Origin: an uncultured bacterium
GTDB lineage: Bacteria > Nitrospirota > Thermodesulfovibrionia > Thermodesulfovibrionales > CALJEL01
Reading direction: 5' to 3'
NCBI GenBank assembly: GCA_938074335.1
Contig: CALJEL010000024.1
Coordinates: 1-52,345, forward strand
DNA length: 52,345 nucleotides
In this document: positions 371 through 23,353 of the stretch, in pieces
Numbering within the stretch: position 1 is the stretch's first letter
Layout of the letters: every line of letters begins with the position of its first letter
Program-made: the position numbers and the translations under genes
The notes under the pieces: generated by a model
What the model saw: only the letters and a program-made list of their open reading frames with translations
Told to the model about the DNA's origin: nothing
Database searches by the model: none

Positions 371-1801
371 CTAACTCCCTAACTCACTAATCCTGTGTAT
401 CTTCATAAAATTAGTCTTTCCTTCAATATAGGTTGGTGGAAGGCTTCCTGTGATGATAATGGTGTCCTGTTTTTTAACAAGGCCTTTTTTCAGCAGCTCC
501 TTTTCTACTTCATTTATAAGCTTATCTGTTGAGTTCAACCTGCGCATGAGCAAGGGGATTACTCCGTGGTAGAGGCAGATCCTTCTGAGGACCACAGGGT
601 CTGGTGTAAAGGCGATGATGGAAACAGGTGGTCTGAATTTGCTGAGTAGCCTTGCTGTAAAGCCAGTCTTTGTGAATGCCACGATGTATTTTATATTAAT
701 GCTACGGGATGCTGTGCAGGCTGCCTGACTGATCGCCTCAGGAAATCCGAACTCATATTGAGGTGTTGTTATCTGTGGCATGATTGATCTTTCTGTGTGG
801 ATAATTATCCTTTTCATGATCTGGACTGACTCCACTGGATACCTTCCCACTGCAGTCTCTCCTGAAAGCATGAGGGCATCTGAGCCATCAATTATGGCAT
901 TTGCCACATCGCTTGCCTCTGCCCTTGTTGGTCTTGGATGCTCCCTCATGGATTCAAGCATCTGTGTTGCTGTTATCGTAAGCCTTGCCTTTTCATTAGC
1001 CTTTTTAAGAAGCATCTTCTGCACTACCGGAACCTCTTCCGGAGGAAGCTCCACACCGAGGTCTCCGCGGGCTATCATTATGCCATCCACTTCATCAAGT
1101 ATGTCCTCTATATTTCTTACTGCCTCTGGCTTTTCTATCTTTGCTATTATGGGCAGGGAGACCTTTCTTTTTTTAAGCCAGTTCTTAAGCATCAGGATGT
1201 CCTCTTCATCCCTTACAAAGGATAGTGCCACCATGTCTATGCCCTCATGGATACCGAACTCAAGGTCCTTCATGTCCTTTTCAGTGAAGGCCCTTTCCTT
1301 AAGATTGCTATGAGGAAAGTTAACACCCTTTCTGCTTCTGAGAATCCCTCCCTCCTCCACCTCTCCGATAAGGGCGCCTCTAACTTTTTCTTTTATCTTT
1401 ATCTCAATAAGGCCATCATCCATCAATACCCTGTCGCCAGGCTTAAGGTCATCAAGCAGTCTATGGTAGGATATATATAATTTCTCACTGTCCCCTCTGC
1501 CAGTGCCAGGAAAAAGCCTGATCCTTGATCCCTTTTTAAGTTCAACAGAACCACCTTCAATATCACCTATCCTTAATTTTATCCCCTGAAGATCCTGAAG
1601 TATACCAGCAGGTCTATTCAGTTCCTTAGATAAATTTCTTATCTTCTTGATGGTCTCGCTGTGGAATTTATAATCCCCATGAGAAAAATTGAGCCTTACC
1701 ACATCCATGCCTTCAAGTATTAATTTCCTTAGGATTTCATCAGATGATGATGCTGGCCCTATGGTGCATATTATCTTTGTCTTTCTCTGTATATCATTCA
1801 T
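371..1801 (-). CDS. pyk: Pyruvate kinase
   Basis: Cytoplasmic glycolytic enzyme converting phosphoenolpyruvate and ADP to pyruvate and ATP. The 476-residue length is normal. The N-terminus carries TKIICTIGPAS, followed by VVRLNFSHG, the active-site stretch IARGDLGVELP, the metal/substrate region TATQMLES and the MSGETAVGRYPVE motif. A C-terminal alpha/beta allosteric-type domain follows. The ATG overlaps the nadB stop as ATGA, so the two genes are cotranscribed and translationally coupled, nadB first. The last six residues (ISELGS) and the stop codon are encoded by the CTAAYTCA-type octamer array downstream, so the original C-terminus has been replaced or extended by repeat DNA. The catalytic region is intact and the enzyme is expected to be active. 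Confidence 0.97.
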   Translation of the reverse strand: MNDIQRKTKIICTIGPASSSDEILRKLILEGMDVVRLNFSHGDYKFHSETIKKIRNLSKELNRPAGILQDLQGIKLRIGDIEGGSVELKKGSRIRLFPGTGRGDSEKLYISYHRLLDDLKPGDRVLMDDGLIEIKIKEKVRGALIGEVEEGGILRSRKGVNFPHSNLKERAFTEKDMKDLEFGIHEGIDMVALSFVRDEEDILMLKNWLKKRKVSLPIIAKIEKPEAVRNIEDILDEVDGIMIARGDLGVELPPEEVPVVQKMLLKKANEKARLTITATQMLESMREHPRPTRAEASDVANAIIDGSDALMLSGETAVGRYPVESVQIMKRIIIHTERSIMPQITTPQYEFGFPEAISQAACTASRSINIKYIVAFTKTGFTARLLSKFRPPVSIIAFTPDPVVLRRICLYHGVIPLLMRRLNSTDKLINEVEKELLKKGLVKKQDTIIITGSLPPTYIEGKTNFMKIHRISELGS

Positions 1802-7761: not shown

Positions 7762-8209
7762 TAAGGGTTCAAGGGGCGAAAGGATAGATGAGAGCGGCCA
7801 GATTATAATGGAGATGGTAAAACCTGTTGGTGAAGTTCTGTTATATGAGATTATACCTGATGAAAAGGAGTTAATAAAGAAGAAACTCCTAGAATATTCA
7901 GAGAGGGTTGATCTTATATTAACCACAGGTGGCACAGGTCTTTCACCAAGGGATGTGACACCAGAGGCAACACTTGAGGTAATAGAGAGAGAGATCCCTG
8001 GTATTGCTGAAGCCATGAGATATGAGGGTCTAAAAAAGACTCCAAGGGCAATGCTTTCAAGGGCAGTGGCAGGTGTCAGAGGAGGTTGCTTGATAATCAA
8101 CCTTCCAGGGAGCCCGAAGGCGGTAAGGGAAAACCTTGAGGTAATCCTTCCTGTGATAGCTCATGCCATAGAAAAGATTAAGGGCGATACCTCGGAGTGT
8201 GCCTTATGA
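7730..8209 (+). CDS. mogA: Molybdopterin adenylyltransferase-like protein (MogA/MoaB family)
   Basis: Predicted to activate molybdopterin by adenylylation for metal insertion. About 159 residues with VGILTMSDKGSRGERID at the start and the MPT-binding motif TTGGTGLSPRDVTPEAT near residues 66-82; INLPGSPKAVRE follows near the C-terminus. I chose the ATG at 7730, preceded by AGAGG with good spacing, over the TTG at 7724. It overlaps the MOSC gene by 32 bp and its stop overlaps the ccdA start (ATGA). MogA and MoaB cannot be separated reliably by eye. Confidence 0.88.
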   Translation: MIRVGILTMSDKGSRGERIDESGQIIMEMVKPVGEVLLYEIIPDEKELIKKKLLEYSERVDLILTTGGTGLSPRDVTPEATLEVIEREIPGIAEAMRYEGLKKTPRAMLSRAVAGVRGGCLIINLPGSPKAVRENLEVILPVIAHAIEKIKGDTSECAL

Positions 8210-8928
8210 AGGAACTCTCTTTTGGCCTTGCTTTTTTTGCTGGTTTGGTTTCATTCCTTAGCCCCTGCGTGTTGCCCCTGATACCTTCTTATATATCCTA
8301 TATAACTGGTTTGTCCTTTAAGGATCTTACAGAATCTTCTGAAACCTCAAAGATAAGAAAGGTCACCCTCATTAATTCCCTTCTCTTTGTTGCAGGGTTT
8401 TCCTCTATCTTCGTCCTCCTTGGAGCCTCCTCCACGACCCTTGGTAGATTATTCTTTCAGTACAGGGATGTAGTAAGGATAATAGGAGGAGTCCTGATTA
8501 TAATATTCGGTCTTTTTGTAGCAGGTATTTTAAACCTTAATTTTCTTATGAGGGAAAGGAGACTTGAACTGAAGGAAAGGCCAGCAGGACTTATAGGCTC
8601 TTTTTTTATAGGTATGACCTTTGGAGCAGGCTGGACACCCTGCATCGGCCCTATCCTTGGTAGCATCCTTATATATGCCTCCACAAAAGATTCTATACTT
8701 TACGGGATGGAACTGCTGGCTGTATATTCAATCGGACTGGGCCTTCCCTTTGTAATATCAGCCCTTGCTATAAATATATTTCTCAGTTACATGAAAAGGA
8801 TTCACAGATACATGAGATATGTGATGGTCCTTAGCGGACTTATACTTATAGCCTTTGGTGTGTTGCTCATTACTAATTCAATTGGTTTTATCTCTCAGTA
8901 CATGCCTGATATAGGGATAAAACTTTGA
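8206..8928 (+). CDS. ccdA: Cytochrome c biogenesis protein CcdA (thiol-disulfide transporter)
   Basis: Six-helix inner-membrane protein, 240 residues, that passes reducing equivalents from cytoplasmic thioredoxin to the periplasm, where they keep apocytochrome CxxCH cysteines or thioredoxin-like proteins reduced. The redox cysteines are Cys21 in SPCVLPLIPSY and Cys146 in GWTPCIGPILG. Helices are visible around 8-32, 53-75, 91-110, 128-160, 167-195 and 205-228. The ATG at 8206 overlaps the mogA-like stop and has GGAG upstream; the GTG at 8197 is less likely. Its role in c-type cytochrome maturation fits the heme-binding receptor in the next operon. Confidence 0.95.
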   Translation: MKELSFGLAFFAGLVSFLSPCVLPLIPSYISYITGLSFKDLTESSETSKIRKVTLINSLLFVAGFSSIFVLLGASSTTLGRLFFQYRDVVRIIGGVLIIIFGLFVAGILNLNFLMRERRLELKERPAGLIGSFFIGMTFGAGWTPCIGPILGSILIYASTKDSILYGMELLAVYSIGLGLPFVISALAINIFLSYMKRIHRYMRYVMVLSGLILIAFGVLLITNSIGFISQYMPDIGIKL

Positions 8929-9668: not shown

Positions 9669-10778
9669 ATGAGCCTTGTAGGAAGACTTGAGGACCTTGC
9701 CCTCTCGGATATATTCCAGATCCTCAGTATAGGTAAAAAGACAGGCACCCTTTTAATAAGGGGAAGGAATAAGAATGCCTTTGTGGTCTTTAAAAATGGC
9801 CTTGTTGTCAGGGCAGAGTCTGATACCCTTGGAACAAATCTTGGTGAAGACCTCATGAAAGAGGGTTTTGTAAGCCAGTCAATACTTAACCTTGCCATTG
9901 AGACAAAGAGACTTCTTCCAGAGAAATCTATAGCCGATATACTCTTTGACCTTGGAGCAGTAACAAAGGAGATACTTGACAGGAGCTCAAAAAAAAGGAT
10001 AGAGCGAGTGGTTTTTGACCTGATGCAGTGGCAGGATGGGGATTTTGAGTTTGAGCTTGATGTCCTCAGTCTTGATTCGGTTTCATCCTATATGGATACA
10101 GGATGGGAGGTCTCCAAGGGATTAAGCCCAGAATACCTATTGATGGAGGGTGCAAGGGTTTTTGATGAGGCTCAGGCTCATGAATATATAAGGACAGAGG
10201 AAATACTACCTGCGTCAGAAAAGGAAGAGGTGGAGTGGTTTGACAGGCCACCTGAAGAAAGAAAAGATATCTCACAACTCAGGGCATTGAGTGTGGAGCT
10301 GAGATTTCCAAGCTCTGCTTCAGAGATAACCTTACTTATATTGAGATTTGCAAGTGATATATTCCAGCGAGGCGTTCTCTTTATGGTTGATGAAGAGGAG
10401 ATACTTGGATTGGGACAGTTTGGACTCGATATTGAGGCGGCTGATGAAAAGATCAGGAAGGTAAGGCTTAATATAAAGGAATCAGGTTTCCTGAGGAGCA
10501 TAATCAATCAGGCAAATGTATATAAAGGTCAGCTCCAGAGGGATAGTGTTACGGAAAGATTTATAACCGTGATTGGTGGAGGATGGCCAAAGGAGGTTGC
10601 TTTTTTTCCTATCATAGCAGAGCAGAAGGTAGTTGCTATGCTCTACTGTGATAATGCTCCGGGAGGTGAACCTTTTGCACACACAGAGGGATTAGAGATA
10701 TTCATTAATCAGGCAGGCCTTGCCCTTGAAAAGGCCCTGCTTGAGAGAAGGTTGAGGCAGATGCATGATGATGATTGA
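9669..10778 (+). CDS. PATAN (DUF4388)-GAF regulatory protein
   Basis: First gene of the chemosensory operon, 369 residues. Residues about 1-130 match the DUF4388/PATAN module often found with receiver and GGDEF proteins (VGRLEDLALSDIFQIL, KTGTLLIRG, VVFKNGLVVRAES, then LMQWQDGDFEFEL). Residues about 200-360 look like a divergent GAF domain (ITLLILRFASDIFQRGVLF, then FFPIIAEQKVVAMLYCDN). No membrane segment or enzyme motif is visible. It is likely a cytoplasmic protein-interaction or sensory adaptor. The stop overlaps the next start (ATGA). The Shine-Dalgarno sequence is weak. Confidence 0.82.
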   Translation: MSLVGRLEDLALSDIFQILSIGKKTGTLLIRGRNKNAFVVFKNGLVVRAESDTLGTNLGEDLMKEGFVSQSILNLAIETKRLLPEKSIADILFDLGAVTKEILDRSSKKRIERVVFDLMQWQDGDFEFELDVLSLDSVSSYMDTGWEVSKGLSPEYLLMEGARVFDEAQAHEYIRTEEILPASEKEEVEWFDRPPEERKDISQLRALSVELRFPSSASEITLLILRFASDIFQRGVLFMVDEEEILGLGQFGLDIEAADEKIRKVRLNIKESGFLRSIINQANVYKGQLQRDSVTERFITVIGGGWPKEVAFFPIIAEQKVVAMLYCDNAPGGEPFAHTEGLEIFINQAGLALEKALLERRLRQMHDDD

Positions 10779-11179
10779 TTCAGCTCTATTTATTTGATAG
10801 AATTACACTTATGGAGAATATACTCATAGTGGAGGATTCAGAGACCACAAGGTCCTTCATAAGGGCTGTTATCGAGGAGATAAAAGACTTTAATATTATT
10901 GAGGCGGCATCAGGATTTGAGGCCCTAAAGATACTTCCCCAGGAAAAATTCAACCTGATCATCACTGATATAAACATGCCTGATATCAATGGCCTTGAGC
11001 TTATAAGATTTGTCAAGACAAATCCTCTCTATAAGGATATACCCCTTATAATAGTCACAACAGAAAGAGGAGAGGAAGACAGGAAAAAGGGTATGAGCCT
11101 CGGTGCATCAGCTTATATAACAAAGCCCTTTAAGGCTGATGAACTGAAAGAGGCTATAAAAAAGGTATTGAATATATGA
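10775..11179 (+). CDS. CheY-like single-domain response regulator
   Basis: A receiver-only protein, 134 residues from the overlapping ATG at 10775, or 122 residues if the ATG at 10811 (MENILIVEDSE) is used. The acidic pair VED, the phosphoacceptor aspartate in IITDINMPDINGLE, the threonine in IVTTE and the lysine in ITKPF are all present. It overlaps cheA by 4 bp and is the likely phosphoryl target of CheA. With no output domain, it should act by binding a partner. Confidence 0.92.
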   Translation: MIQLYLFDRITLMENILIVEDSETTRSFIRAVIEEIKDFNIIEAASGFEALKILPQEKFNLIITDINMPDINGLELIRFVKTNPLYKDIPLIIVTTERGEEDRKKGMSLGASAYITKPFKADELKEAIKKVLNI

Positions 11180-13197
11180 AGGCATCACGAAGAGATTTCA
11201 TCCTGGAGGCAGAAGAGCTTATAGAGGAGGCAGAGAGACTGGCTATCGAGATCCAGGAGAATCTTGAAAAGGGTTTGAATCCGGACACAGTGAATGCCCT
11301 CTTCAGGCAGATTCATACATTAAAAGGACTTTCAGGATTATTCCAGCTTAAATCCATCTCAGACATGAGCCATGTCTTTGAATATCTTCTTGATGACCTG
11401 AGGCTTGGCAGGATCGATATATCTGAAGATGTGGTGGAATTTATTCTCGAGAACATAGATATACTGAAGGCCCTTATTACAAATGTTGAACAGGAAAGCC
11501 TGCCCGATGTATCTTCCTATGTCAGAGAGATCGAGGCATTCAGGTCAAGTCATTTTACAAAGCAGGAAGAGGTAAAGCTTGAAGGATTGATAGAGCAGTC
11601 CATCCTGAGTGTCCTTTCTCAATATGAGGAAAGTAGACTGAAAACCAATATAAGGGAAGGAAAGGGTGTATATTATATGGATGTGGCCTTCCCGCTCATG
11701 ACCTTTGATACAGCCCTCAAGGAACTTTCCGAGAAGATAAAATCCATGGGTGAGCTTATAGCTACAATGCCTACCCAGACAGATCTTCCTCCTGATTCTA
11801 TAGGTTTCAGACTTCTTTTTGCGTCACTTCATTCAAAGGAAGACCTTCTCAGTGCAGGCATAGAGGCAAGGACTATCCTGAATCCTGAAAAAACGAGGTC
11901 AGGTACAGGAAATCAGAAGTCAGAGAGCAAACCTCAGGCAGGAGAGCTCAGGCAGATAAAGGATACTGCATCAAGTACGGTTAAGGTTGATATAAACAAG
12001 CTCGATCTAATCCTTAACACAATAGGAGAGATTAGTCTTACCAGGGGCGCAATAAAGAGGGTTGCTGATGAGATGAAGGAACTTTATGGAATATCTCCAC
12101 TTGTTTTTGATCTTCATAAGATATCAGCCAGTCTTGAAAAAAGGATTCATGAGCTTCAGGATGAGGTCCTTGCAATAAGGATGGTACCCCTTGCTCAGCT
12201 CTTTGGAAGGGTTAATCAGATGCTCAGGAGATATGCAAGAGAGGTAAACAAAACAGTTAGAGTTGAGATCTATGGAGAGGATACAGAGATAGATAAGTCT
12301 ATATCCGACAATATTATGGAGCCACTGATGCATCTTGTCAGGAATGCTATAGACCATGGAATAGAAAGCCCTGAAGAAAGAAAGGCAAAGGGCAAGCAGG
12401 AGGAAGGCCTTATCACATTCAGGGCTTATCAGAAGGGAAATCATGTTGTAATAGAAGTGGCTGATGATGGAAGGGGAATAGACCTTGAAAAGATCAGAAA
12501 AAGGGCAATGGAGAGGGGTATCCTTTCTTCTGATAAGGTTACAAAAGAGGAGCTTATAGAGCTCATATTTACTCCTGGTTTCAGTACAAAGGAGACTGTA
12601 ACAGAGATATCTGGTAGAGGTGTGGGGATGGATGTGGTGAGGGATAAGATAGCATCTATAGGTGGATTTGTGGAGGTGGAGACCTTCGAGGATAAAGGAA
12701 GTATATTCAGATTGACTATTCCCATTACACTTGCAATTATAAAATCTATCCTTGTAAGGGTTGGGAGTGAAAAATTTGCCTTTCCCCTCACCTCTGTATC
12801 AGAGACCCTGTTGATAAAGGAATCTGATATACAGAGTATAGAAAAGATGGAGGCCTATAATCTAAGGGGAACTGTCCTGCCCCTTATCAGGGTTTCTGAT
12901 GCCCTTGGTATAAATTCTAATCAAAAAGAATTTTATTATGTAGTGGTGGCTGGCACAGGTGAGAGAAGGATAGGGCTTCTGGTGGATGAGCTGATAGGTC
13001 AGCAGGAGATAGTCATTAAACCCCTTGGAAGGTACCTTGAGGGTCTGAGGTGGTATGCCGGTGCTGCAGAGGTTGGAAGACATGAACTCATATTGGTCCT
13101 TGATGTGGATGCCTTCATACAGGAGGGTACCATAAGGAAGTTAAGGACAAAGGGTGCTTATTCTGAAAAGACAGCTGAGGAGTCAGGTTATGTATGA
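11176..13197 (+). CDS. cheA: Chemotaxis-type histidine kinase CheA
   Basis: Sensor kinase of the chemosensory array, 673 residues. The N-terminal Hpt domain has the phosphorylated His47 in FRQIHTLKG. Residues about 135-235 form a middle domain that is not a standard CheY-binding P2. A dimerisation domain lies near 265-340. The ATPase domain (about 340-515) carries the N box (EPLMHLVRNAIDHGIE), DDGRGID at 430-436 and GRGVGMD at 480-486. A CheW-like regulatory domain ends the protein (about 520-650). All catalytic boxes are intact. It overlaps the CheY-like gene before it and the ATPase gene after it. Confidence 0.96.
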   Translation: MKASRRDFILEAEELIEEAERLAIEIQENLEKGLNPDTVNALFRQIHTLKGLSGLFQLKSISDMSHVFEYLLDDLRLGRIDISEDVVEFILENIDILKALITNVEQESLPDVSSYVREIEAFRSSHFTKQEEVKLEGLIEQSILSVLSQYEESRLKTNIREGKGVYYMDVAFPLMTFDTALKELSEKIKSMGELIATMPTQTDLPPDSIGFRLLFASLHSKEDLLSAGIEARTILNPEKTRSGTGNQKSESKPQAGELRQIKDTASSTVKVDINKLDLILNTIGEISLTRGAIKRVADEMKELYGISPLVFDLHKISASLEKRIHELQDEVLAIRMVPLAQLFGRVNQMLRRYAREVNKTVRVEIYGEDTEIDKSISDNIMEPLMHLVRNAIDHGIESPEERKAKGKQEEGLITFRAYQKGNHVVIEVADDGRGIDLEKIRKRAMERGILSSDKVTKEELIELIFTPGFSTKETVTEISGRGVGMDVVRDKIASIGGFVEVETFEDKGSIFRLTIPITLAIIKSILVRVGSEKFAFPLTSVSETLLIKESDIQSIEKMEAYNLRGTVLPLIRVSDALGINSNQKEFYYVVVAGTGERRIGLLVDELIGQQEIVIKPLGRYLEGLRWYAGAAEVGRHELILVLDVDAFIQEGTIRKLRTKGAYSEKTAEESGYV

Positions 13198-14059
13198 GGA
13201 GTATTACGGATTCACCAAAAAACCTTTTTCAAAAACACCTGACCCCGAATTTCTTTATTTAAGCAAGACACATGAAGAGGCACTTGCAAGGCTTCAGTAT
13301 GCAGTTGAGGAGAAAGAGATAGTGCTTCTTACAGGTGAGATCGGTTCAGGAAAGACCACAATAACAAGGGCACTTATGGATTCCCTTGATGATACAAGAT
13401 ATAAGGTCATTCTGATCCTGAATCCAAGACTTTCACCTGTTCAGTTTTTAAAAATTATTTTAAAAAGGATGGGAGTGGAAGATATACCTTCTAATCGTCA
13501 TGATCTTAACGAACTCATCTATGAAAAGCTTTTTGAACTCTATAATTCAGGTATTGTGCCTGTCTTTATAATAGATGAGGCACAGCTCATCAGTGACAAA
13601 AGGGTTTTTGAGGAGATGAGACTTCTTACAAATTTTCAGCTTGATAATGAAAATCTTCTCTCTTTACTTCTTGTTGCACAGCCTGATATAAAGAAAAAGA
13701 TTGCCAATAAGATATACCTTCCTTTGAGGCAGAGGATCGGTATGTACTACCACATAGGTCCTCTAACAGAAGAGGAGGTAAAGGAATATATAAACTTCAG
13801 ACTCATGAAGGCTGGCAGGACCAAGCCCCTCTTTACTGATGATGCCATAAAAAGAATTTACCTTTACTCTGGTGGTATACCGAGGGTAATAAATAATATT
13901 GCCAATGCCTCACTCCTTGAGGCAATGGGAAGAGATGCCTCCATAATAGAGCAGGATATAGTGGAGGCAGCTGCCACTGAGCTTGAGCTTACAGTGATGA
14001 AGCAGGATCACAATAGACAGCCAGAGCAGACCAGCAGGATCAGGCTGAAGGCAGGCTAA
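13190..14059 (+). CDS. ExeA/GspA-like AAA+ ATPase
   Basis: A 289-residue ATPase of the ExeA/TniB-like family: MYEEYYGFTKKPFSKTPDP is the typical N-terminus, Walker A is GEIGSGKTT (49-57), and Walker B is VFIIDEAQ (about 125-132). A sensor-type region and a C-terminal helical lid (YSGGIPRVINNIAN) follow. I chose the ATG at 13190, which has GAGGAG seven bases upstream and overlaps the cheA stop, over an in-frame ATG 36 bases earlier. ExeA proteins help assemble type II secretion through peptidoglycan; here no peptidoglycan-binding or membrane segment is present. It is unusual inside a che operon and may move or organise array or pilus components, which is inference. Confidence 0.88.
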   Translation: MYEEYYGFTKKPFSKTPDPEFLYLSKTHEEALARLQYAVEEKEIVLLTGEIGSGKTTITRALMDSLDDTRYKVILILNPRLSPVQFLKIILKRMGVEDIPSNRHDLNELIYEKLFELYNSGIVPVFIIDEAQLISDKRVFEEMRLLTNFQLDNENLLSLLLVAQPDIKKKIANKIYLPLRQRIGMYYHIGPLTEEEVKEYINFRLMKAGRTKPLFTDDAIKRIYLYSGGIPRVINNIANASLLEAMGRDASIIEQDIVEAAATELELTVMKQDHNRQPEQTSRIRLKAG

Positions 14060-14095
14060 ATCCTGAGGCCTGAACCTGTAAGGGAGAGTGATAGA

Positions 14096-14833
14096 ATGGA
14101 TATAGCCAGGATAAGAAAAAAAATGAAAACAAAGGCAACTGTTACTCCTTCACCAGAGACGGGGTCACCAGAAAAGAGCGATAGTGCTACAGTGCCACAG
14201 GGTGAGGATTCAGTGCAACAGACTCCTGCAGCCACACAGCCATACAGTCATAATGCAGGAAAGATGGAAGAACCATCGAGCATCAGCAAGGAACTCACTT
14301 TAAGTCCTGAAACAGTTGAGGTGCAGGTGCCTGAAACCAAGCAGGAGGTTCTCGGAGAAAAGACCTCTTTACAGGAGGTGCCTGAGATAAGCCCTGAAGG
14401 CATGGATAGTGAACGCATAGACCTCCTTGTCTTTAAACTTGCTGGTGAAGAATATAGCTTTCTCCTTGAGGATGTAAAGGAGATATTAAAAAAACAGTAT
14501 ATCACTCTTGTGCCACTTGCACCCTATTCAGTCCAGGGGATAACTTCCTTAAGAGGTACTGTGATACCTGTCATTGACCTTTCAAAGAAACTCCTTGGTA
14601 TTCCCTCAAAAAATGACAGAAAAAGCCGGATCCTTATTATGGAGGGTAAAGAAGGAACAATCGGCTGCATGGTTGAGGAGGTGGAAGGTGTGCAGAGGTG
14701 TAGCAGGGAGCAGAAAAAAGGGATCCCTGAGAATATGACTGACAAAGAAAGGGCCTTTATTGAGGCAATATTTGTTGTTGATGATAGATTTATAACCCTT
14801 CTTAAGAAGGAGAGCATAGAATTGAAGATTTAA
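14096..14833 (+). CDS. CheW-like coupling protein with long disordered N-terminus
   Basis: A 245-residue protein. Residues 1-105 are low-complexity, rich in Pro, Glu, Thr and Ser, with no fold visible. Residues about 108-245 are a CheW domain (VFKLAGEEYSFLLEDVKEIL, ITSLRGTVIPVIDLSKKLLG, then GCMVEEVEGV). CheW joins receptors to CheA. The tail-like N-terminus may act as a flexible tether to the HEAT protein or the ATPase. AGGGAGAG precedes the ATG. A shorter CheW lies two genes downstream, so the system has two different couplers. Confidence 0.9.
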   Translation: MDIARIRKKMKTKATVTPSPETGSPEKSDSATVPQGEDSVQQTPAATQPYSHNAGKMEEPSSISKELTLSPETVEVQVPETKQEVLGEKTSLQEVPEISPEGMDSERIDLLVFKLAGEEYSFLLEDVKEILKKQYITLVPLAPYSVQGITSLRGTVIPVIDLSKKLLGIPSKNDRKSRILIMEGKEGTIGCMVEEVEGVQRCSREQKKGIPENMTDKERAFIEAIFVVDDRFITLLKKESIELKI

Positions 14834-14856: not shown

Positions 14857-17703
14857 ATGATTAAAAGGAGCCTTGGTTATAAGATTATCATTCCAGGCAT
14901 TCTAATAACAGTGCTCGGTATAGTGATTGGTTCTGCCATTATCTATTTTTATATGAGTACAAACATATACAGGGTATCCTTTGAAAGGGTAGGCACAACA
15001 GCAGAGCTCATAAAGAAAAACATAGAAAGGACAATGCTGGAGGGAAAGGCAGAGATTACAGCAAGGATCATAGATGACATGAAGTCTGTAAAGGGCATCG
15101 AGCATATAGAGGTCTTCAATCACGAAGGAAGGGTAGCCTTTCATAAGGGAGCCCTTCCAGTGGAATATGAGACAATAAAAAATCTTGAGCCAGGGAAGGT
15201 TTTAACACTCAGATTAAAAGACAGGATTGTAACCTATGCGCCCCTTGAGAACTTTCCATCCTGCCAGGCCTGTCATCCTAAGGACTTAAAGATCCTCGGT
15301 GCTGTAAAGGTCTCTCATCCCACAAGTGCTGAAGCGAACAGGTTAAAAAGACTATTAACAGTATTGATAATACTCGGTGTGGTTGCCACAGGTTCACTTG
15401 CCACTATCTTTTATATGATTCTTTTGAGGACTGTCCTCAGGCCTGTGAAGATATTGAGAAGGGCCTCAGAGGATATGGCAGAGGGAAGATTCTCCCTTGA
15501 TATAAATATCAATGGTGAAGATGAGATTGCCAGTTTGAGCTCTTCCATAAGGGAGGCCCTGAGGGCAATAAGTGTAATACTCCTGAGGGTAAAGGAGGTC
15601 TCAAGGAGGGTTGCTAAGGTTGCCTCTATGGTTGAGAAGGACTCAAAAAAGACAGTGGAGGGTACACAGCTTGAGGCTGAGGCAATGCAGAATATTTCTT
15701 CCTCTGTGGAGGAGCTTAATTCTGCCATATCCGAGATCGCAGAGGGTACAGATGGACTTGCTGCATCAACAGAGGAGACCGCAGCATCTATGGAACAGAT
15801 ATCAACGAATATTGCCCAGATTACAGAGGGTATGCATGAGCTATCACAGGCTGTGGAGGGAGCGGCTTCCTCTCTGGAAGAACTCCTTGCCACTGTAAGG
15901 GAGATAGCAAGGAGTTCTGATGAGATGCTCAGGGCCTCTGAAGATACGATGAGCACCATCTCTGAGATATCTGCCTTTATAAGGGAGGTTGAATCCAGTG
16001 CAAAGGAATCAGCTCAGATATCAGAAAGGGTTGCTCAGGATGCCTCCACACTGGGTGTATCTGCTATTGAAAAAACAATAGAGGGAATGAACAAAATAAA
16101 ATCCTCTGTTGAAAAAACAGCAGGGTATATTGAGAGGCTTACTACCAGGTCAGAAGATATAGGAAAGATATTGAATGTCATTGATGAGATCACGGAGCAG
16201 ACTGCGCTCCTTGCCCTGAATGCAGCCATACTGGCTGCTCAGGCAGGAGAGCACGGAAAGGGTTTCTCCGTGGTCGCAGATGAGATAAGGGACCTTGCTG
16301 AAAGGACATCCTTCTCAACACAGGAGATTGCCTCTATTGTAAATTCAGTTATGACGGAGATGAAAGAGGCATCCCGTGCAATGAATGAGGGTCTTGAGAG
16401 TGTAGGTGAAGGGATAAGACTCGCAGTTGATGCACGGGTGACCTTCGAGAATATCCTTGAAAGCTCAAAGAAGTCCTCTGAAATGGCTTCATCAATAGAG
16501 AGGGCAACATCTGAGCAGACAAAGGCAATCAAGCTTGTTGAGAAGGCAATGGAAAGGGTGAAGGCAATGGCTGAGCAGATTGCTAAGTCCACATCTGAAC
16601 AGTCAAAGGGAGCAATGATAATAATGAAGTCCATAGAGAATATAAAGGACATCTCCTTAAAGGTCACCAGGGCAACAGAGGAGCAGTCTCAGAGTACAAA
16701 ACAGATATCAAAGGCGGTGGAACTTATATCAGAAAAGAGTCAGCAGATATCAAAGGCTATAAATGAACAGAAACTTGGCTCAAATCAGATAAGGAACTCA
16801 CTGCTTGGTATAAGAGATCTACCTAAGGACAATAAGGTTATTGCAACGAGGATCCTGAGAACCGTTAAAGACCTCCTTAATGATACAGAGCTTATCTCAA
16901 CGGAGCTTGAGAAGTTTGTCCTCATGGATCTCTCAAAGGAGATTATCTGGTTTGGTATTGTCCCTCTGGAGGCACCTGCTGAGATGTACAGGAGGTTTTC
17001 AGGTCTCGCAAGATATCTTGGCGGTTCTCTTGGCAAACCTGTTGAGCTCAGGGTCCCAGTGAATTTTGAGACCGCTGTAGAGGAGATTGGTGATGGAAAG
17101 ACCCTCATAGGATTCATGACCCCATCCACCTATATAGAGGCACATGAAAGATATGGTGTTGAGGTTATAGCAAAGGCATTAAGGGATGGAAAGCCCTTCC
17201 ATCATTCCGTTATAGTGACAAGACCTGACAGTGGTATAAAAAACCTGAAGGATCTGAAGGGTCGATCCTTTGCCTTCGGAAGTATACATTCCACATCAAG
17301 TCATATAGTTCCGAGGTCAATGCTCAGGAATGCCGGTATTGAACTAAAGGACCTCTCAGAATACACCTATCTTGGCCATCATGATGATGTGGCAAGGGCT
17401 GTGCTCAAAGGAGAGTTTGATGCAGGAAGTGTTATGGAATCAACTGCTCAGAGATTCAAGAGTGAGGGACTGGTGGTGATAGCCCTGTCTGAGGATATAC
17501 CAGAATTTAATATATGTATAAATAAATTACTTTCTGATAAAAAAGAGGAATTGAGAGCCGCACTCCTGAGATTAAATGAGACAGAGGAGGGAAGAAATAT
17601 CCTGAGGCAGATAGATCCCTCTTATACTGGTTTTACAGCTGCAGATGACACAGATTACCAGAAAATAAGGCTGATAATGAAAGACCTCGGTCTGTTGAGG
17701 TAG
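14857..17703 (+). CDS. Methyl-accepting chemoreceptor with periplasmic CxxCH heme motif and C-terminal PhnD-like domain
   Basis: A 948-residue receptor. A membrane helix (about 10-33) is followed by a periplasmic domain of about 130 residues that carries CQACH (136-140), the c-type heme attachment motif, near the second membrane helix (about 166-191). HAMP covers about 190-245, then a long signalling coiled coil with its tip at about 447-475 ([20 protein letters not shown]). Residues about 696-945 match a PhnD/phosphonate-type periplasmic-binding-protein domain ([30 protein letters not shown]). No membrane segment separates it from the signalling hairpin, so it should be cytoplasmic, the opposite of its usual location. 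The likely heme loading agrees with ccdA just upstream. The ligand cannot be told. Confidence 0.93.
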
Positions 17704-17705
17704 CT

Positions 17706-18191
17706 ATGAAATATCTTATATTTATTCTTAAGGATGAGGAATTTGCAATAGAGGTAAACAGGGTGGTGGAGATCCTGCGACCTCAAAAGGTATTTGAAAT
17801 GCCAGAGCTACCTGACTTTCTTCAGGGAGTTATAAATGTGAGAGGGATCATAATACCCGTTGTTGATATGAGAAAAAGACTCGGGCTTCCCGTTCATGAT
17901 AAGTCAATGATAGTGGTGATAAATTATGGCCATGACAGGCTGGGTCTCATTGTAGATGATGTAAAAGAGATCATTGAGATAGAGGAAAAGGAGATCTCCC
18001 GGTCACCTGAACTTTTAAAAAACTTCAGGACAGATTATCTCAAGGCCTTTGCAAAAAAGGCAGATAGGGTAATCATGATCCTTAATCTTGAGACCCTTCT
18101 TAGCTCTCAGGAGATATCAAGTCTTAAGGAAGTACCGAAAAATATAGAGCAGGGAGAGTCAACCCCAAAAACAATAAAAGGAGTTTCTTGA
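17706..18191 (+). CDS. cheW: CheW coupling protein
   Basis: A 161-residue single CheW domain (YLIFILKDEEFAIEVNRVVEIL, LQGVINVRGIIIPVVDMRKR, then RLGLIVDDVKEII) that links the receptor to CheA at the membrane array. It follows the receptor stop by two bases. The C-terminal 20 residues are polar and not part of the fold. Confidence 0.95.
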   Translation: MKYLIFILKDEEFAIEVNRVVEILRPQKVFEMPELPDFLQGVINVRGIIIPVVDMRKRLGLPVHDKSMIVVINYGHDRLGLIVDDVKEIIEIEEKEISRSPELLKNFRTDYLKAFAKKADRVIMILNLETLLSSQEISSLKEVPKNIEQGESTPKTIKGVS

Positions 18192-18197
18192 TTAGCA

Positions 18198-20174
18198 ATG
18201 GGAATAAACCTGTCTGAACTTGAGATAGAAAAAAAGAGACTCTCCTTAGAGGCACTCAGGACAAAGCCGTCAAGAGAATCCCTTGATATCCTTATAGAGG
18301 CAATGAAGGAAGAGTCCTGGAGGTTGAGGAAGACAGCCCTTGAGATATTACTTGAGGATTATCAGCCAGAAGAATACATGGAAAGACTTATAGGTCTTCT
18401 ATATCTCGGAGACAATGCCGGTGCAAGAAATACTGCAATTGAGGCGCTTACAAGACTCGGCAAAAAGGCTACCCCCTATCTTATAAAGGCCTTTGACACC
18501 GATGACAGGGATGTGAGGAAATTCATTATTGATATCCTTGGAAGTCTTGATGACAGAAGGGCGATACCCTTGATGCTCAAGGCACTTTCTGATGAGGATG
18601 ACAATGTAAAGGTCACTGCTGTAGAGCATCTTGGAAGGGTAAAGGAGTCTTCGGTAACTGACGCCCTTATAGAGATATTGAAGGGTGATGATATCTGGAC
18701 TGCCTATCCTGCTGCAGATGCCCTTGGAAGGATTGGTGACAGGAGGGCTATACCCTATCTTGTAGAGGCACTTTCAAAGAAGACCCTGAGGGTTCCTGTC
18801 CTTAAGTCCCTTGCAAGGTTTGCAGATCCATCAACCCTTTCATCAATTGTACCGCTTCTCAGTGATGCATCAAAGACTGTTCAGGAAGAGGCATTAAAGA
18901 CCATAGTGAAGTTCTATCACAAAGGTGTTCAGCCTGATCTTATACTTAATGTCCTTAAGGACTTTTATGATGACGATACACTCTTTGATATCTGTCTTAA
19001 ATATGCCTGGAGCAATAAGCATGACCTCAGGATATCAGCAATAATGCTTCTGGGGCTTCTGAAAAACGAGAGGGCACTTCAGCCACTTCTTGAGATATCA
19101 CAGGAAGAGGAATATGCAGAAGATGTAAAAAAGGCACTTGTCTTCATGGGTAAGGCCAGACCGGAAAGCCTCCTTCCACTTTTTGACCTTGAAAATGCCT
19201 ATTACAGGAGATTCATTGCCAGTGTGGCTGGTGAGGTGGGTTCCGGTCTTTACAGTTCAAAACTTATAGATTATCTCAGCGATGAGGATGGCCATGTGAG
19301 GGCAATGGCAGCAAGGTCGCTTTCAATGATAGGTGACACAAGGGCAGTACCATATATTAAAAGACTTCTTCAGGATCCCTATGAAGATGTTCAGGAGGCA
19401 GCCTGTGAGGCACTTTCTATACTGAAAGAGGGCATTGAGATAAATGAAGTCCTTTCATGGCTTGGGGCTTATGACACAAGCCTCAGAAGAAATGCGGCAC
19501 GCCTCCTCGGTCTTCTCAAGATAGGTTCTGCCATACATGAGCTTGGTTTTACTATTAAGGACAGTGATGCCTCTGTAAGGAGGGCTGCTGTGGAGGCCTT
19601 AAGGAGGATAGGTTCTGAAGAGGCAAAGAGATATTTAAGCATGGCCCTTACAGATGAGATAAGGGATATAAGGGTTGCAGCAATATACAGTCTTGGAAGC
19701 ATAGGCGGGCCTGATATATCCGAACTCATGAGATCCCTGCTCCATGACAGGGATGATTTTATAAAGGTCGCAGCCATAAAGGTCCTTGGAAGGCTTAAAG
19801 ACCCATCCACCCTCAATGACCTTATATCAATGCTTGAAGAGCCAAATGGTTTTGTAAGGACATCAGCAATAGAATCACTCAGTGTCTTTAAAGATACAGC
19901 GGCACATGAAGCGATAATCAGGATGCTCGATGACAGCGACATGGAGATAAAGAGGACCGCTATAGAGGCACTCTCAGGTTATGAGCCTGCACACAGGAGA
20001 CTTCTTCAGTTTCTAAAAAGTGAAGAATGGATATTAAGGATGGCTGCGGTGAAGGCACTGGGAAGGTCAGAAGATCCATTAATAAGGGCTGAGCTTGAGA
20101 GTCTTTTCGATAAAGAAGAGGACCCCTCCATAAAGAATATGCTCACGGAGATACTGCATGTTAAAAGGACCTGA
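18198..20174 (+). CDS. HEAT-repeat scaffold protein
   Basis: A 658-residue protein made almost entirely of PBS-lyase-type HEAT repeats of about 31 residues: units such as DRRAIPLMLKALSDEDDNVK, DRRAIPYLVEAL and DTRAVPYIKRLLQDPYEDVQ recur from about residue 20 to the end. There is no catalytic motif, signal peptide or membrane segment. HEAT superhelices usually bind partners, so it probably holds together parts of this signalling complex. The AAAGGAG site lies inside the end of cheW, 14 bases before the ATG. The 3' end overlaps cheR by 17 bp. Confidence 0.92.
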   Translation: MGINLSELEIEKKRLSLEALRTKPSRESLDILIEAMKEESWRLRKTALEILLEDYQPEEYMERLIGLLYLGDNAGARNTAIEALTRLGKKATPYLIKAFDTDDRDVRKFIIDILGSLDDRRAIPLMLKALSDEDDNVKVTAVEHLGRVKESSVTDALIEILKGDDIWTAYPAADALGRIGDRRAIPYLVEALSKKTLRVPVLKSLARFADPSTLSSIVPLLSDASKTVQEEALKTIVKFYHKGVQPDLILNVLKDFYDDDTLFDICLKYAWSNKHDLRISAIMLLGLLKNERALQPLLEISQEEEYAEDVKKALVFMGKARPESLLPLFDLENAYYRRFIASVAGEVGSGLYSSKLIDYLSDEDGHVRAMAARSLSMIGDTRAVPYIKRLLQDPYEDVQEAACEALSILKEGIEINEVLSWLGAYDTSLRRNAARLLGLLKIGSAIHELGFTIKDSDASVRRAAVEALRRIGSEEAKRYLSMALTDEIRDIRVAAIYSLGSIGGPDISELMRSLLHDRDDFIKVAAIKVLGRLKDPSTLNDLISMLEEPNGFVRTSAIESLSVFKDTAAHEAIIRMLDDSDMEIKRTAIEALSGYEPAHRRLLQFLKSEEWILRMAAVKALGRSEDPLIRAELESLFDKEEDPSIKNMLTEILHVKRT

Positions 20175-21066
20175 ACCCTCTCAAGCCAATTCCTCACAGA
20201 CTGCTCATTCCGGGTTATTTGAACCAAAGATCATACCCATGTCTGATGAGACCTTCAGGCTGATCAGGGATCTTATCAGAAATTACTGTGGGATATATTT
20301 TGATGATTCATCAAAATACCTTCTTGAGAGGAGGCTCTCAAGAAGAGTTGCACTTCTCAATCTCAATGATTTCAGGGATTATTACAGGTTTCTCCTCTAT
20401 GACTCCAGGAAAGAGGAAGAGCTTTCAGCCATAATGGATGTTCTTACAGTAAATGAGACATACTTCTTCAGGGAACCAAATCTCCTCAGGGCATTCAGTG
20501 AGGAGATACTTCCTGAGCTCAGAGAAAAAAATCAGACTTCCAGAAGACTCAGGATATGGTCTGGAGGCTGTTCAACAGGAGAAGAACCCTATACCATAGC
20601 AATGCTTTTGCTGGAGGACGGGAGATTCTTTGGCTGGGACATCCAGATCACAGGTAGTGATATAAGTCAGAGGGTCCTGCAGGTTGCAAGAAGGGGTGTT
20701 TATGGTAAAAATTCTTTCAGACAGACCGATAATTATTATATAAGGAAATATTTTAAGGAAGAAGGCGAGGGTCTCTGGAGGATCAAGGATTCTGTCAGGG
20801 AACTTGTAAGTTTCAGTTATCTCAATCTCCTTGATCCCTTCAGGACTAAATTAATAGAAACCATGGATGTTATATTCTGCAGGAATGTCCTTATATATTT
20901 TGATATGGAGTCAAGGAAAAAGGTAATAGATATGTTTTATAATAAATTGCGGAATGGAGGGTATCTTTTACTGGGACATGCCGAGTCCCTTCTTAATATA
21001 TCCAGCTCCTTTGTATTAGTGCATTTAAAAAACGATGTAGTTTACAGGAAAATCTTACCTGAGTGA
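20158..21066 (+). CDS. cheR: Chemoreceptor methyltransferase CheR
   Basis: Transfers methyl groups from SAM to receptor glutamates, for adaptation. The N-terminal helical domain (about 28-105) contains GIYFDDSSKYLLERRLSRR and NETYFFRE. The SAM-binding Rossmann part has WSGGCSTGEEPYTIAML, then SYLNLLDPF, DVIFCRNVLIYFD and LLLGHAESL. The first 27 residues form a polar extension. The ATG at 20158 has GGAG nine bases upstream and overlaps the HEAT gene, but ATG 20239 would give a conventional CheR length. Confidence 0.95.
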   Translation: MLKGPEPSQANSSQTAHSGLFEPKIIPMSDETFRLIRDLIRNYCGIYFDDSSKYLLERRLSRRVALLNLNDFRDYYRFLLYDSRKEEELSAIMDVLTVNETYFFREPNLLRAFSEEILPELREKNQTSRRLRIWSGGCSTGEEPYTIAMLLLEDGRFFGWDIQITGSDISQRVLQVARRGVYGKNSFRQTDNYYIRKYFKEEGEGLWRIKDSVRELVSFSYLNLLDPFRTKLIETMDVIFCRNVLIYFDMESRKKVIDMFYNKLRNGGYLLLGHAESLLNISSSFVLVHLKNDVVYRKILPE

Positions 21067-21077
21067 GGTCCCTGAGT

Positions 21078-22142
21078 ATGGACAGGATAAGGGTTCTTGT
21101 TGTTGATGATTCAGCCTTTAGCAGACAGACTATCAAGAAGATGCTTGAATCAGAGGAGGGCATTGAGGTTGCTGGCATTGCAACTGATGGTATTGATGCT
21201 ATCGCAAAAACCCTGAAACTCAAACCAGACCTTATAACACTTGACCTGGAGATGCCTGAGATGGATGGGTTTGCCTTTCTGAGATACCTGATGAAGGAAC
21301 GGCCAACACCCGTGATAGTAGTAAGTTCCTATTCAGATTCAATGACTGTCTTCAGGGCACTTGAGGCTGGTGCTGTTGATTTCATAGCAAAGCCTACTCC
21401 AAGGGCATCTCAGGAACTGAATAATATTAAAAATGATCTGATTGCAAAGGTAAAATCAGTAAGGCAGATGAGTCTTGAAAGATTGAAAAAGAATCTCAGC
21501 CTTCTTGAAAGACAGACAGAGGTAACTTCACAGGAGGCAGGGATAATCACTGAAAGGCATAAAATAGAAGTAGTGGGTATAGCCTCTTCTACAGGAGGAC
21601 CTCAGGCATTGCAGCTCATACTTACAAAGATACCAGAGGGCTTTCAGCCTCCAATCCTTGTGAGCCAGCATATGCCAAGGGGTTTCACAGCCTCTCTTGC
21701 GGAAAGACTTAATAAACTTTCAAAGATTACAGTCAAGGAGGCAGAGCACGGAGAAACCCTAAGACAGTCCACTGCCTATATATGTCCCGGAGGCAAGCAT
21801 ATGGTTTTAAAGAGAAGGGCTAATAATATTATAATAGACCTTGAAGAGGCCACAAGGGAAGACAGGTACATCCCGTCAGCTGACAGGATGTTTTCTTCCA
21901 TTGCAGAGCACTACAGGGCCCATAGCATGGGAGTTGTAATTACAGGTATGGGGAATGATGGCAAAAAGGGTCTCCTTGAGATTAAATCAAAGGGTGGTTA
22001 TACTATAGCAGAGTCTGAGGAGACCGCGGTGGTTTTTGGTATGCCTCAGGAGGCTATAAAGGCAGGTGCGGTAACAAGGGTACTTCCCCTGTATGAGATA
22101 CCCTATGAGATAATAAAGATAGCCGGTAATAGAGGTGAATAG
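21078..22142 (+). CDS. cheB: Chemoreceptor methylesterase/deamidase CheB
   Basis: Removes receptor methyl esters when phosphorylated by CheA. From the ATG at 21078 it is 354 residues: a receiver domain with Asp56 (LITLDLEMPEMDG) and a linker, then the esterase domain with catalytic Ser171 in GIASSTGGPQAL, His near 198 in SQHMPRGF and Asp near 295 in TGMGNDGKKG. The chosen ATG has GAGG nine bases upstream; a GTG at 21063 overlapping the cheR stop is the alternative. Together with CheR it shows that this pathway adapts. Confidence 0.95.
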   Translation: MDRIRVLVVDDSAFSRQTIKKMLESEEGIEVAGIATDGIDAIAKTLKLKPDLITLDLEMPEMDGFAFLRYLMKERPTPVIVVSSYSDSMTVFRALEAGAVDFIAKPTPRASQELNNIKNDLIAKVKSVRQMSLERLKKNLSLLERQTEVTSQEAGIITERHKIEVVGIASSTGGPQALQLILTKIPEGFQPPILVSQHMPRGFTASLAERLNKLSKITVKEAEHGETLRQSTAYICPGGKHMVLKRRANNIIIDLEEATREDRYIPSADRMFSSIAEHYRAHSMGVVITGMGNDGKKGLLEIKSKGGYTIAESEETAVVFGMPQEAIKAGAVTRVLPLYEIPYEIIKIAGNRGE

Positions 22143-22159
22143 ATTTACAGGAGAGGACA

Positions 22160-22981
22160 ATGGAGAAAGAACTAAATGCAGTAAAGAAGGCTGAGGAGTT
22201 TATTCAACTCTTCAAAAAGGGTGAGGAGTTCACAAAGGAGCTTCTCAAGGAAAATGAAAGGCTTCGTTACAGGATAGCTCAGCTCGAGGAGGCACTGGCA
22301 AGGTCAGGTGATGAGGCAAGGATAAAACTTTATGAAGAAAGGATAGCTGCCCTTGAGGAGGAGCTTAATTCCCTTAAGGAGAGATATGCAAGGGTGGAGG
22401 CAGAGAACAAGGACTTTGCAGAAAAATATGTTGAGATTGAACAGGAGAATAATAACCTTGCAAACCTTTATGTAGCAAGTTATCAGCTCCATTCTACCCT
22501 TGATTTTGATGAGGTGCTCAAGATTGTCCTTGAGATTATAATCAATCTTATAGGTGCTGAGAAATTTGCTATCTTCCTTATAAATGAAAAGACAAACGAG
22601 ATCGAACCTGTGGCAGCAGAAGGCGTGAGTCTCTATGAACTACCGAGATTTAACTTTGGTGAAGGGATTATCGGTAAGGTTGCAAAGGAAGGAGAGAGTT
22701 ATTTTGCTTCAGACATATCCAGACAGGAAGAATTTAATGCCTCAAGACCCATTGTATGTATTCCGCTGAAGATCAAAGAACATGTGATAGGTATAATAGT
22801 GATTTACTCGCTACTCGTTCAGAAAAAGGAGTTTACAAATGTTGATTATGAGCTTTTCAATCTCCTTGCAGGACATGCTGCTACAGCAATATTTTCTTCA
22901 AAGCTTTATACCCAGTCTGAAAGAAAGCTTACGACAATACAGAGCTTTCTGGAACTCTTAAAGGAAAAGCCCAGGAGGTAA
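22160..22981 (+). CDS. Coiled-coil GAF-domain protein
   Basis: A 273-residue cytoplasmic protein. Residues about 5-108 are a continuous coiled coil rich in Glu, Lys and Leu. Residues about 112-260 are a GAF domain (LHSTLDFDEVLKIVLEII, NFGEGIIGKVAKEGESYF, VCIPLKIKEHVIGIIVIYS). No output domain is attached. It probably senses a small molecule or joins the array as an accessory part. AGGAGAGG precedes the ATG. It lies between cheB and a second CheY. Confidence 0.88.
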   Translation: MEKELNAVKKAEEFIQLFKKGEEFTKELLKENERLRYRIAQLEEALARSGDEARIKLYEERIAALEEELNSLKERYARVEAENKDFAEKYVEIEQENNNLANLYVASYQLHSTLDFDEVLKIVLEIIINLIGAEKFAIFLINEKTNEIEPVAAEGVSLYELPRFNFGEGIIGKVAKEGESYFASDISRQEEFNASRPIVCIPLKIKEHVIGIIVIYSLLVQKKEFTNVDYELFNLLAGHAATAIFSSKLYTQSERKLTTIQSFLELLKEKPRR

Positions 22982-22984
22982 TCT

Positions 22985-23353
22985 ATGCCCACAATACTTG
23001 TGGTAGAGGACTCACCCACTATGAGACAGCTTATAAGCTTTGCTATGAAGAGGGTTCAGAACTCAAGGGTGATAGAGGCAACAGATGGAGTGGATGCCCT
23101 GAAAAAACTTTCCCAGGAAAAGGTAGACCTTATCCTTGCTGATATAAATATGCCTGTTATGGATGGTCTGAAGCTTTTAAGTCTTTTAAAGAGCAATCCC
23201 TCTTATAAAGATATCCCTGTCATTATGATTACCACAGAAGGAGCAGAGGAGGACAGGAAAAAGGCCCTTTCCATAGGTGCAAATGCCTATCTTACAAAAC
23301 CCATACAGACACAGGAACTCATAAAACTGGTAAATGAGTTTGTCAATAAATAA
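22985..23353 (+). CDS. CheY-like response regulator (second copy)
   Basis: A 122-residue receiver domain: VVEDS at the start, the phosphoacceptor aspartate in LILADINMPVMDG, threonine in MITTEGA and lysine in LTKPI. It is closely related to the 10775 receiver (both share EDSxTxR, INMP and TTExxEEDRKK), which suggests duplication within the operon. AGGAGG lies six bases before the ATG. One copy could act as output and the other as phosphate sink, a common arrangement when two single-domain receivers are present. Confidence 0.94.
   Translation: MPTILVVEDSPTMRQLISFAMKRVQNSRVIEATDGVDALKKLSQEKVDLILADINMPVMDGLKLLSLLKSNPSYKDIPVIMITTEGAEEDRKKALSIGANAYLTKPIQTQELIKLVNEFVNK

Follow-up and report, generated by a model that had tools for sequence, protein, structure and literature searches.

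The window, the whole stretch of 52,345 nucleotides analysed here, carries a chemoreceptor gene with che genes on both sides. The receptor frame is open across 948 aa, exactly at the coordinates of the original prediction. The main features are as follows.

9669-14833, + strand: upstream che operon, encoding a DUF4388 protein, a receiver, CheA, an AAA ATPase (ExeA-like) and CheW
14857-17703, + strand: chemoreceptor of 948 aa with a predicted heme-c Cache domain, HAMP, a long hairpin and a C-terminal PhnD-fold domain
14884-14952, + strand: transmembrane (TM) helix 1, residues about 10-32 (hydropathy peak 2.61; a helix in the model)
15007-15312, + strand: predicted periplasmic heme-c sensor domain, residues 51-152 (PF21563, E 9.7e-8; profile matches 3b47 and 3b42)
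15352-15414, + strand: TM helix 2, residues about 166-186 (hydropathy peak 2.37)
15421-15567, + strand: HAMP domain, residues 189-237 (PF00672, E 5.4e-10)
15523-16911, + strand: signalling hairpin, predicted helices 223-462 and 468-685, tip about 453-466 (PF00015)
16951-17658, + strand: cytoplasmic PhnD/PtxB-fold domain, Pfam residues 699-934 (PF12974, E 1.5e-65; model; Foldseek)
17706-23353, + strand: downstream che operon, encoding CheW, a HEAT-repeat protein, CheR, CheB, a GAF protein and a CheY-like protein

The protein is an MCP: MCPsignal with the conserved hairpin tip, HAMP and the Che partners are all present, and the HAMP domain and signalling hairpin that had been read from the sequence were both matched in Pfam. 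Kyte-Doolittle means over 19 residues peak only twice, at residues 10 and 166 (2.61 and 2.37). No TM segment follows residue 186 ahead of the PhnD domain; residues 640-700, a stretch singled out for this check, reach a maximum of 1.19, and the claim that a third TM helix is lacking was thereby upheld. Because hydropathy gives only two TM helices and none ahead of the C-terminal PhnD domain, that domain shares the cytoplasmic side with the CheA-binding tip; nothing pointed to a periplasmic C-terminus or a third membrane helix. The predicted full-length model is weak (pLDDT 71, pTM 0.41).

The outer and the inner domain

Pfam places Mcp40H-20_sensor (PF21563) on the periplasmic part. A profile was built from the sensor domains of the 39 full-length orthologues that retain the heme sensor domain; its only convincing matches are the Geobacter structures GSU0582 (3b47, E 6.3e-15) and GSU0935 (3b42, E 2.8e-13). 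Three features bear on heme binding.

15034-15036, + strand: Met60, aligned to Met60 of GSU0935, an axial ligand of the heme (M in 37/39 orthologues)
15262-15276, + strand: CQACH heme-c attachment motif, residues 136-140 (C136, C139 and H140 invariant in 39/39)
8197-8928, + strand: CcdA/DsbD-TM-like cytochrome c biogenesis gene (PF02683, E 4.8e-18)

In the predicted model the CxxCH lies in a short helix (residues 134-138) between two Cache strands (123-131 and 146-155), as in the sCache_heme domains, where the motif occupies a short helix between two strands and fusions to signalling modules are reported to show NO-sensor properties (PMC12889525, preprint). Met60 ligates the heme iron in GSU0935, for which a redox-linked release of Met has been argued (PMC8396549). 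The genome encodes four Cytochrom_C_asm genes. Taken together, the motif, the axial Met and the maturation genes argue strongly, by homology, for a covalent heme c with predicted Met/His ligation. CQACH was found between the two TM helices, as originally described. Its proposed conservation stood in every orthologue with the domain, but the periplasmic domain itself is missing or replaced in other members of the family.

For the inner domain, the proposed PhnD fold is borne out by Pfam, by an AlphaFold2 model of residues 676-948 (mean pLDDT 94.7) and by Foldseek, in which PtxB leads by E-value (8e-29) and ArrX is one of the top matches by TM-score (0.82/0.87). Both the two-lobed Phosphonate-bd fold and the profile match are present, and a chance domain match is excluded by E-value, structure model and conservation. 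The binding protein of a phosphonate ABC importer would be exported, periplasmic and accompanied by an ABC partner; this domain is fused to a cytoplasmic hairpin and has che neighbours. In the PtxB family the STS-H motif holds the phosphoryl oxygens and cap residues set specificity (PMC5700983). The corresponding positions are given below, with counts from 53 PhnD-domain sequences.

16966-16968, + strand: Leu704, at the position of PtxB cap D22 by alignment
17290-17298, + strand: S812-T813-S814, anion-binding STS motif (S812 53/53, T813 33/53, S814 37/53)
17380-17382, + strand: His842, histidine of the STS-H motif (kept in 49/53)
17506-17517, + strand: F884, at PtxB cap Y208, through the near-invariant C887 (F884 48/53, C887 49/53)

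E861 is also near invariant among these sequences, pocket positions T813, S814, F737 and H782 are variable, and conservation of the pocket positions as a group does not significantly exceed that of the remaining residues (Mann-Whitney p 0.098). Since S812 and H842 are kept and the cap positions hold L704 and F884, the anion-binding core is largely retained, and the phosphite, arsenic and aminoethylphosphonate caps are absent. A PtxB-like phosphite sensor was rejected on the unfit cap residues, L704 and F884 in place of the D22/Y208 pair of the phosphite subfamily. An AioX-like arsenic sensor was rejected on the missing pocket Cys: T755 stands at the position equivalent to Cys106, where ArrX and the tandem-PhnD proteins have a Cys, and the Cys and Pro positions of AioX/ArrX are Thr and Phe. 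The tail contacts E177 and D205 of the 2-aminoethylphosphonate PhnD correspond by alignment to S862 and F884, the E177 column being assigned via its spacing from the pocket His. F884 also stands at T247 of GpxB (aligned via PhnD D205); placement of the R223 column is uncertain. With E177/D205 and T247 all absent, no known ligand transfers to this domain.

Tandem-PhnD proteins of about 570 aa are encoded in the window's own genome (C13; L099:6543-8264) and at L095-L098, L102 and L103. Their first PhnD domain groups with ArrX (SH-aLRT 99), and its pocket signature Y-C-Y-S-N-S-H and Pro cap match AioX/ArrX; the protein is likely an arsenic-type sensor. A receiver-domain protein is encoded near the gene. 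The C-termini (e.g. L095:2808-4517) carry a conserved TCGxGCHPKIKL or similar, and this CxxxCH motif could bind heme.

The che operon and the spread of the fusion

The MCP-PhnD fusion is present in 93 of the 230 genomes of the class, nearly always within the same che operon, and this recurrence excludes an assembly artefact. The order DUF4388-CheA-ATPase-CheW-receptor-CheW-HEAT-CheR-CheB is maintained in most loci. A HEAT-repeat gene accompanies the fusion in 90/93 genomes, and seven genomes have the HEAT gene without the fusion. Other classes of the phylum (Nitrospirota) also have the fusion in this operon, mostly with different sensor domains. On the PhnD tree the outer-domain label (heme, other, none) changes 11 times while PhnD stays, and six receptors at several tree positions have no periplasmic domain but do have PhnD. 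The PhnD domain persists through losses and swaps of the periplasmic part, which makes it the constant input; the heme domain has repeatedly been lost or replaced. Receptor-borne PhnD domains cluster with moderate support in a quick tree (SH-aLRT 91).

Many loci of the class (e.g. L053:7801-9825) encode a second operon receptor of about 674 aa without CxxCH or PhnD, which stops where the PhnD domain would begin; the window has no such receptor. At L132:5544-8338 receptor and PhnD are split between overlapping frames of 638 and 304 aa, probably by a draft-assembly frameshift. A pyruvate kinase gene lies 13 kb from the receptor in the window (371-1801, - strand), probably by chance.

A sample of 249 genomes from the phylum of Paenibacillus puerhi (L047) yielded 13 or so PhnD-matching frames of about 579-672 aa. 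Eight of these were run through Pfam: all eight are MCPsignal plus a C-terminal Phosphonate-bd, and at the cut-off applied none matches HAMP or a family of periplasmic sensors. Their PhnD domains retain S812 and H842 and vary in the cap, most with E and D at the E177/D205 positions of PhnD, and they fall apart from the window lineage. The MCP-PhnD fusion arose separately in the Paenibacillus phylum. The original prediction had called this domain order very unusual. That holds for the literature, where the open-access subset searched gave no description of a PhnD domain on a chemoreceptor. It does not hold in nature: the order is no one-off but widespread in the window's phylum, with a second origin in the Paenibacillus phylum.

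Gene neighbours differ between the two groups. Genes of the glpK/glpA/dhaKLM or gap-pgk-tpi-eno sets adjoin 6/12 of the separate receptor loci examined vs 1/42 che-operon loci (Fisher p 0.0002), a value to be taken as a guide only, since the control comes from another phylum, the markers were drawn from the loci being compared and some of these loci are related to one another. In one order, dhaK-dhaL lies directly downstream of the receptor gene in 11 of the 13 genomes with a match. Four short receptors in the window's own phylum have the cap signature of the window receptor; among these, L093 adjoins gap/pgk, L092 a phosphoglycerate-mutase-like gene, and L091 lies near a deoC-like gene (the last two neighbours named from sequence). 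In the Paenibacillus phylum, MCP-PhnD receptor genes in or beside glycerol kinase or dihydroxyacetone kinase operons were seen at L149, L151, L156, L158 and L163-L173, and at L150:1855-10382 an MCP-PhnD gene lies directly 3' of pyk-gap-pgk-tpi-eno.

Sampling of other phyla covered Myxococcota, Bacteroidia and the Paenibacillus phylum. In Myxococcota, none of the four long PhnD frames (724-757 aa) has an MCP tip, and the three tested were rejected as two kinase-PhnD fusions and one permease-PhnD fusion. L121 and L123 of this phylum carry PhnD C-terminal to a Ser/Thr protein kinase domain, and L122 joins them on the tree. PhnD frames in the Bacteroidia sample (phylum of L045) all measure 296-363 aa. 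In a plasmid search, MCP and binding-protein genes were separate and nothing matched at 80% coverage.

Two proposed inputs on one receptor

Domains, fold, topology, conservation and operon were obtained by computation; we infer the ligand class, the coupling and the direction of the response. Homology supports the earlier picture of a heme c outside and a PhnD fold inside on one receptor, clustered with one CheA. Our favoured explanation, to which we give an even chance, is a dual-input receptor that joins an outer heme sensor of redox state or NO and an inner sensor of phosphorylated metabolites on one CheA. Outside, the single-Cache domain with covalent heme c would sense redox state or NO, loss of the axial Met60 being the possible trigger, as proposed for GSU0582/GSU0935, and the signal would pass via TM2 and HAMP. 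Inside, a linker about ten residues long joins the PhnD domain to the point where the returning hairpin helix ends; attached there, it should lie near the membrane beside the HAMP/methylation region and not at the CheA tip. It would bind an anionic small molecule of the cytoplasm, most likely phosphorylated and, in our preferred reading, a three-carbon phosphometabolite, and closure of the cleft would repack the helix ends and thereby change CheA activity. The kept S812 and H842, the gene neighbours of other MCP-PhnD receptors and two precedents speak for a phosphometabolite sensor inside combined with heme sensing outside: TlpD has a working sensor, a CZB domain, at the C-terminal end of its hairpin (PMC12871147), and the PhnD fold of GpxB is able to bind glycerol phosphates (PMC12718374). 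Against the metabolite reading, the operon of the window receptor has no glycolytic or glycerol neighbour; that context comes from other lineages, and the idea was formed post hoc, once the neighbours were known.

Other ligands and roles have to be weighed. The nearest solved folds, PtxB and ArrX, the retained STS-H oxyanion motif and the presence of the oxyanion sensors AioX/ArrX in the family (PMC5908839) would all suit an inner domain that signals P or As status by binding an inorganic oxyanion, such as phosphate, phosphite or arsenate, once this has entered the cell. We nevertheless consider this unlikely, if still a serious candidate: L704/F884 replace the PtxB cap, and in Te_PtxB the Y208F change costs about 3 orders of magnitude in phosphite binding and leaves essentially no binding of phosphate (PMC5700983); the Thr and Phe at the AioX/ArrX Cys and Pro positions argue likewise. 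That the PhnD domain is ligand-free, a structural part or a dock for a partner such as CheR/CheB or the HEAT protein, strikes us as decidedly unlikely. The unremarkable conservation of the pocket set and the HEAT protein alongside in nearly every genome fit such a role. Yet S812 is invariant and H842, F884, C887 and E861 nearly so; the MCP-borne PhnD of the other phylum retains S812/H842 with a cap that varies as in ligand binders; and a search around the second-type receptors L088-L090, L106 and L107 turned up no HEAT protein. The invariance of CxxCH in all 39 receptors that retain the domain might point to heme as the main physiological input, with PhnD merely tuning it; this is quite improbable, for the six receptors on several branches without a periplasmic domain retain PhnD, and others have different sensors.

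Returning to the phosphometabolite sensor, a broader statement seems to us plausible, at somewhat below an even chance: the PhnD fold would have moved into the cytoplasm more than once as a C-terminal MCP sensor of phosphorylated central metabolites, to which the window lineage adds an outer heme sensor of redox state or NO. Candidates may be glycerol phosphate, DHAP, phosphoglycerate or PEP. How cells navigate by their own metabolism has long been asked, and many bacteria still lack a named receptor for it; if true, our explanation would give metabolism-dependent taxis a direct molecular path. The receptor family is conserved, places a binding-protein fold in the "wrong" compartment, and has relatives whose neighbours suggest a short list of ligands. 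It would also be a natural example of outer and inner inputs on a single receptor.

Among known systems, GSU0582/GSU0935 share with the receptor two TM helices, a Cache/PAS-like domain in the periplasm that has both CxxCH and the axial Met60 (similar at profile level, E 6e-15), HAMP and the MCP hairpin, but their cytoplasmic part ends with HAMP and the MCP domain, without a C-terminal PhnD (PMC8396549). In TlpD, too, a cytoplasmic sensor domain follows the MCP hairpin on its C-terminal side; in contrast, TlpD is soluble, its zinc-binding helical CZB domain is unrelated, and it has no heme-c domain. PtxB, PhnD, HtxB and GpxB (PF12974) have the same fold and phosphoryl-binding STS-H motif, whereas they are periplasmic and supply ABC importers; here the domain is cytoplasmic, on a receptor, with other cap residues. 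AioX/ArrX are also PhnD-fold proteins serving signalling rather than transport, but are periplasmic and separate from the kinase, and their Cys ligand, Asn and Pro cap are absent here. The MCP-PhnD receptors of the Paenibacillus phylum (L137-L146, L163-L175; soluble or anchored) likewise have a C-terminal cytoplasmic PhnD fold on an MCP; they differ in being shorter (579-652 aa), lacking the heme-c sensor, belonging to a separate PhnD lineage with an E862/D884-type cap and, in many cases, lying in a glycerol/DHA operon context.
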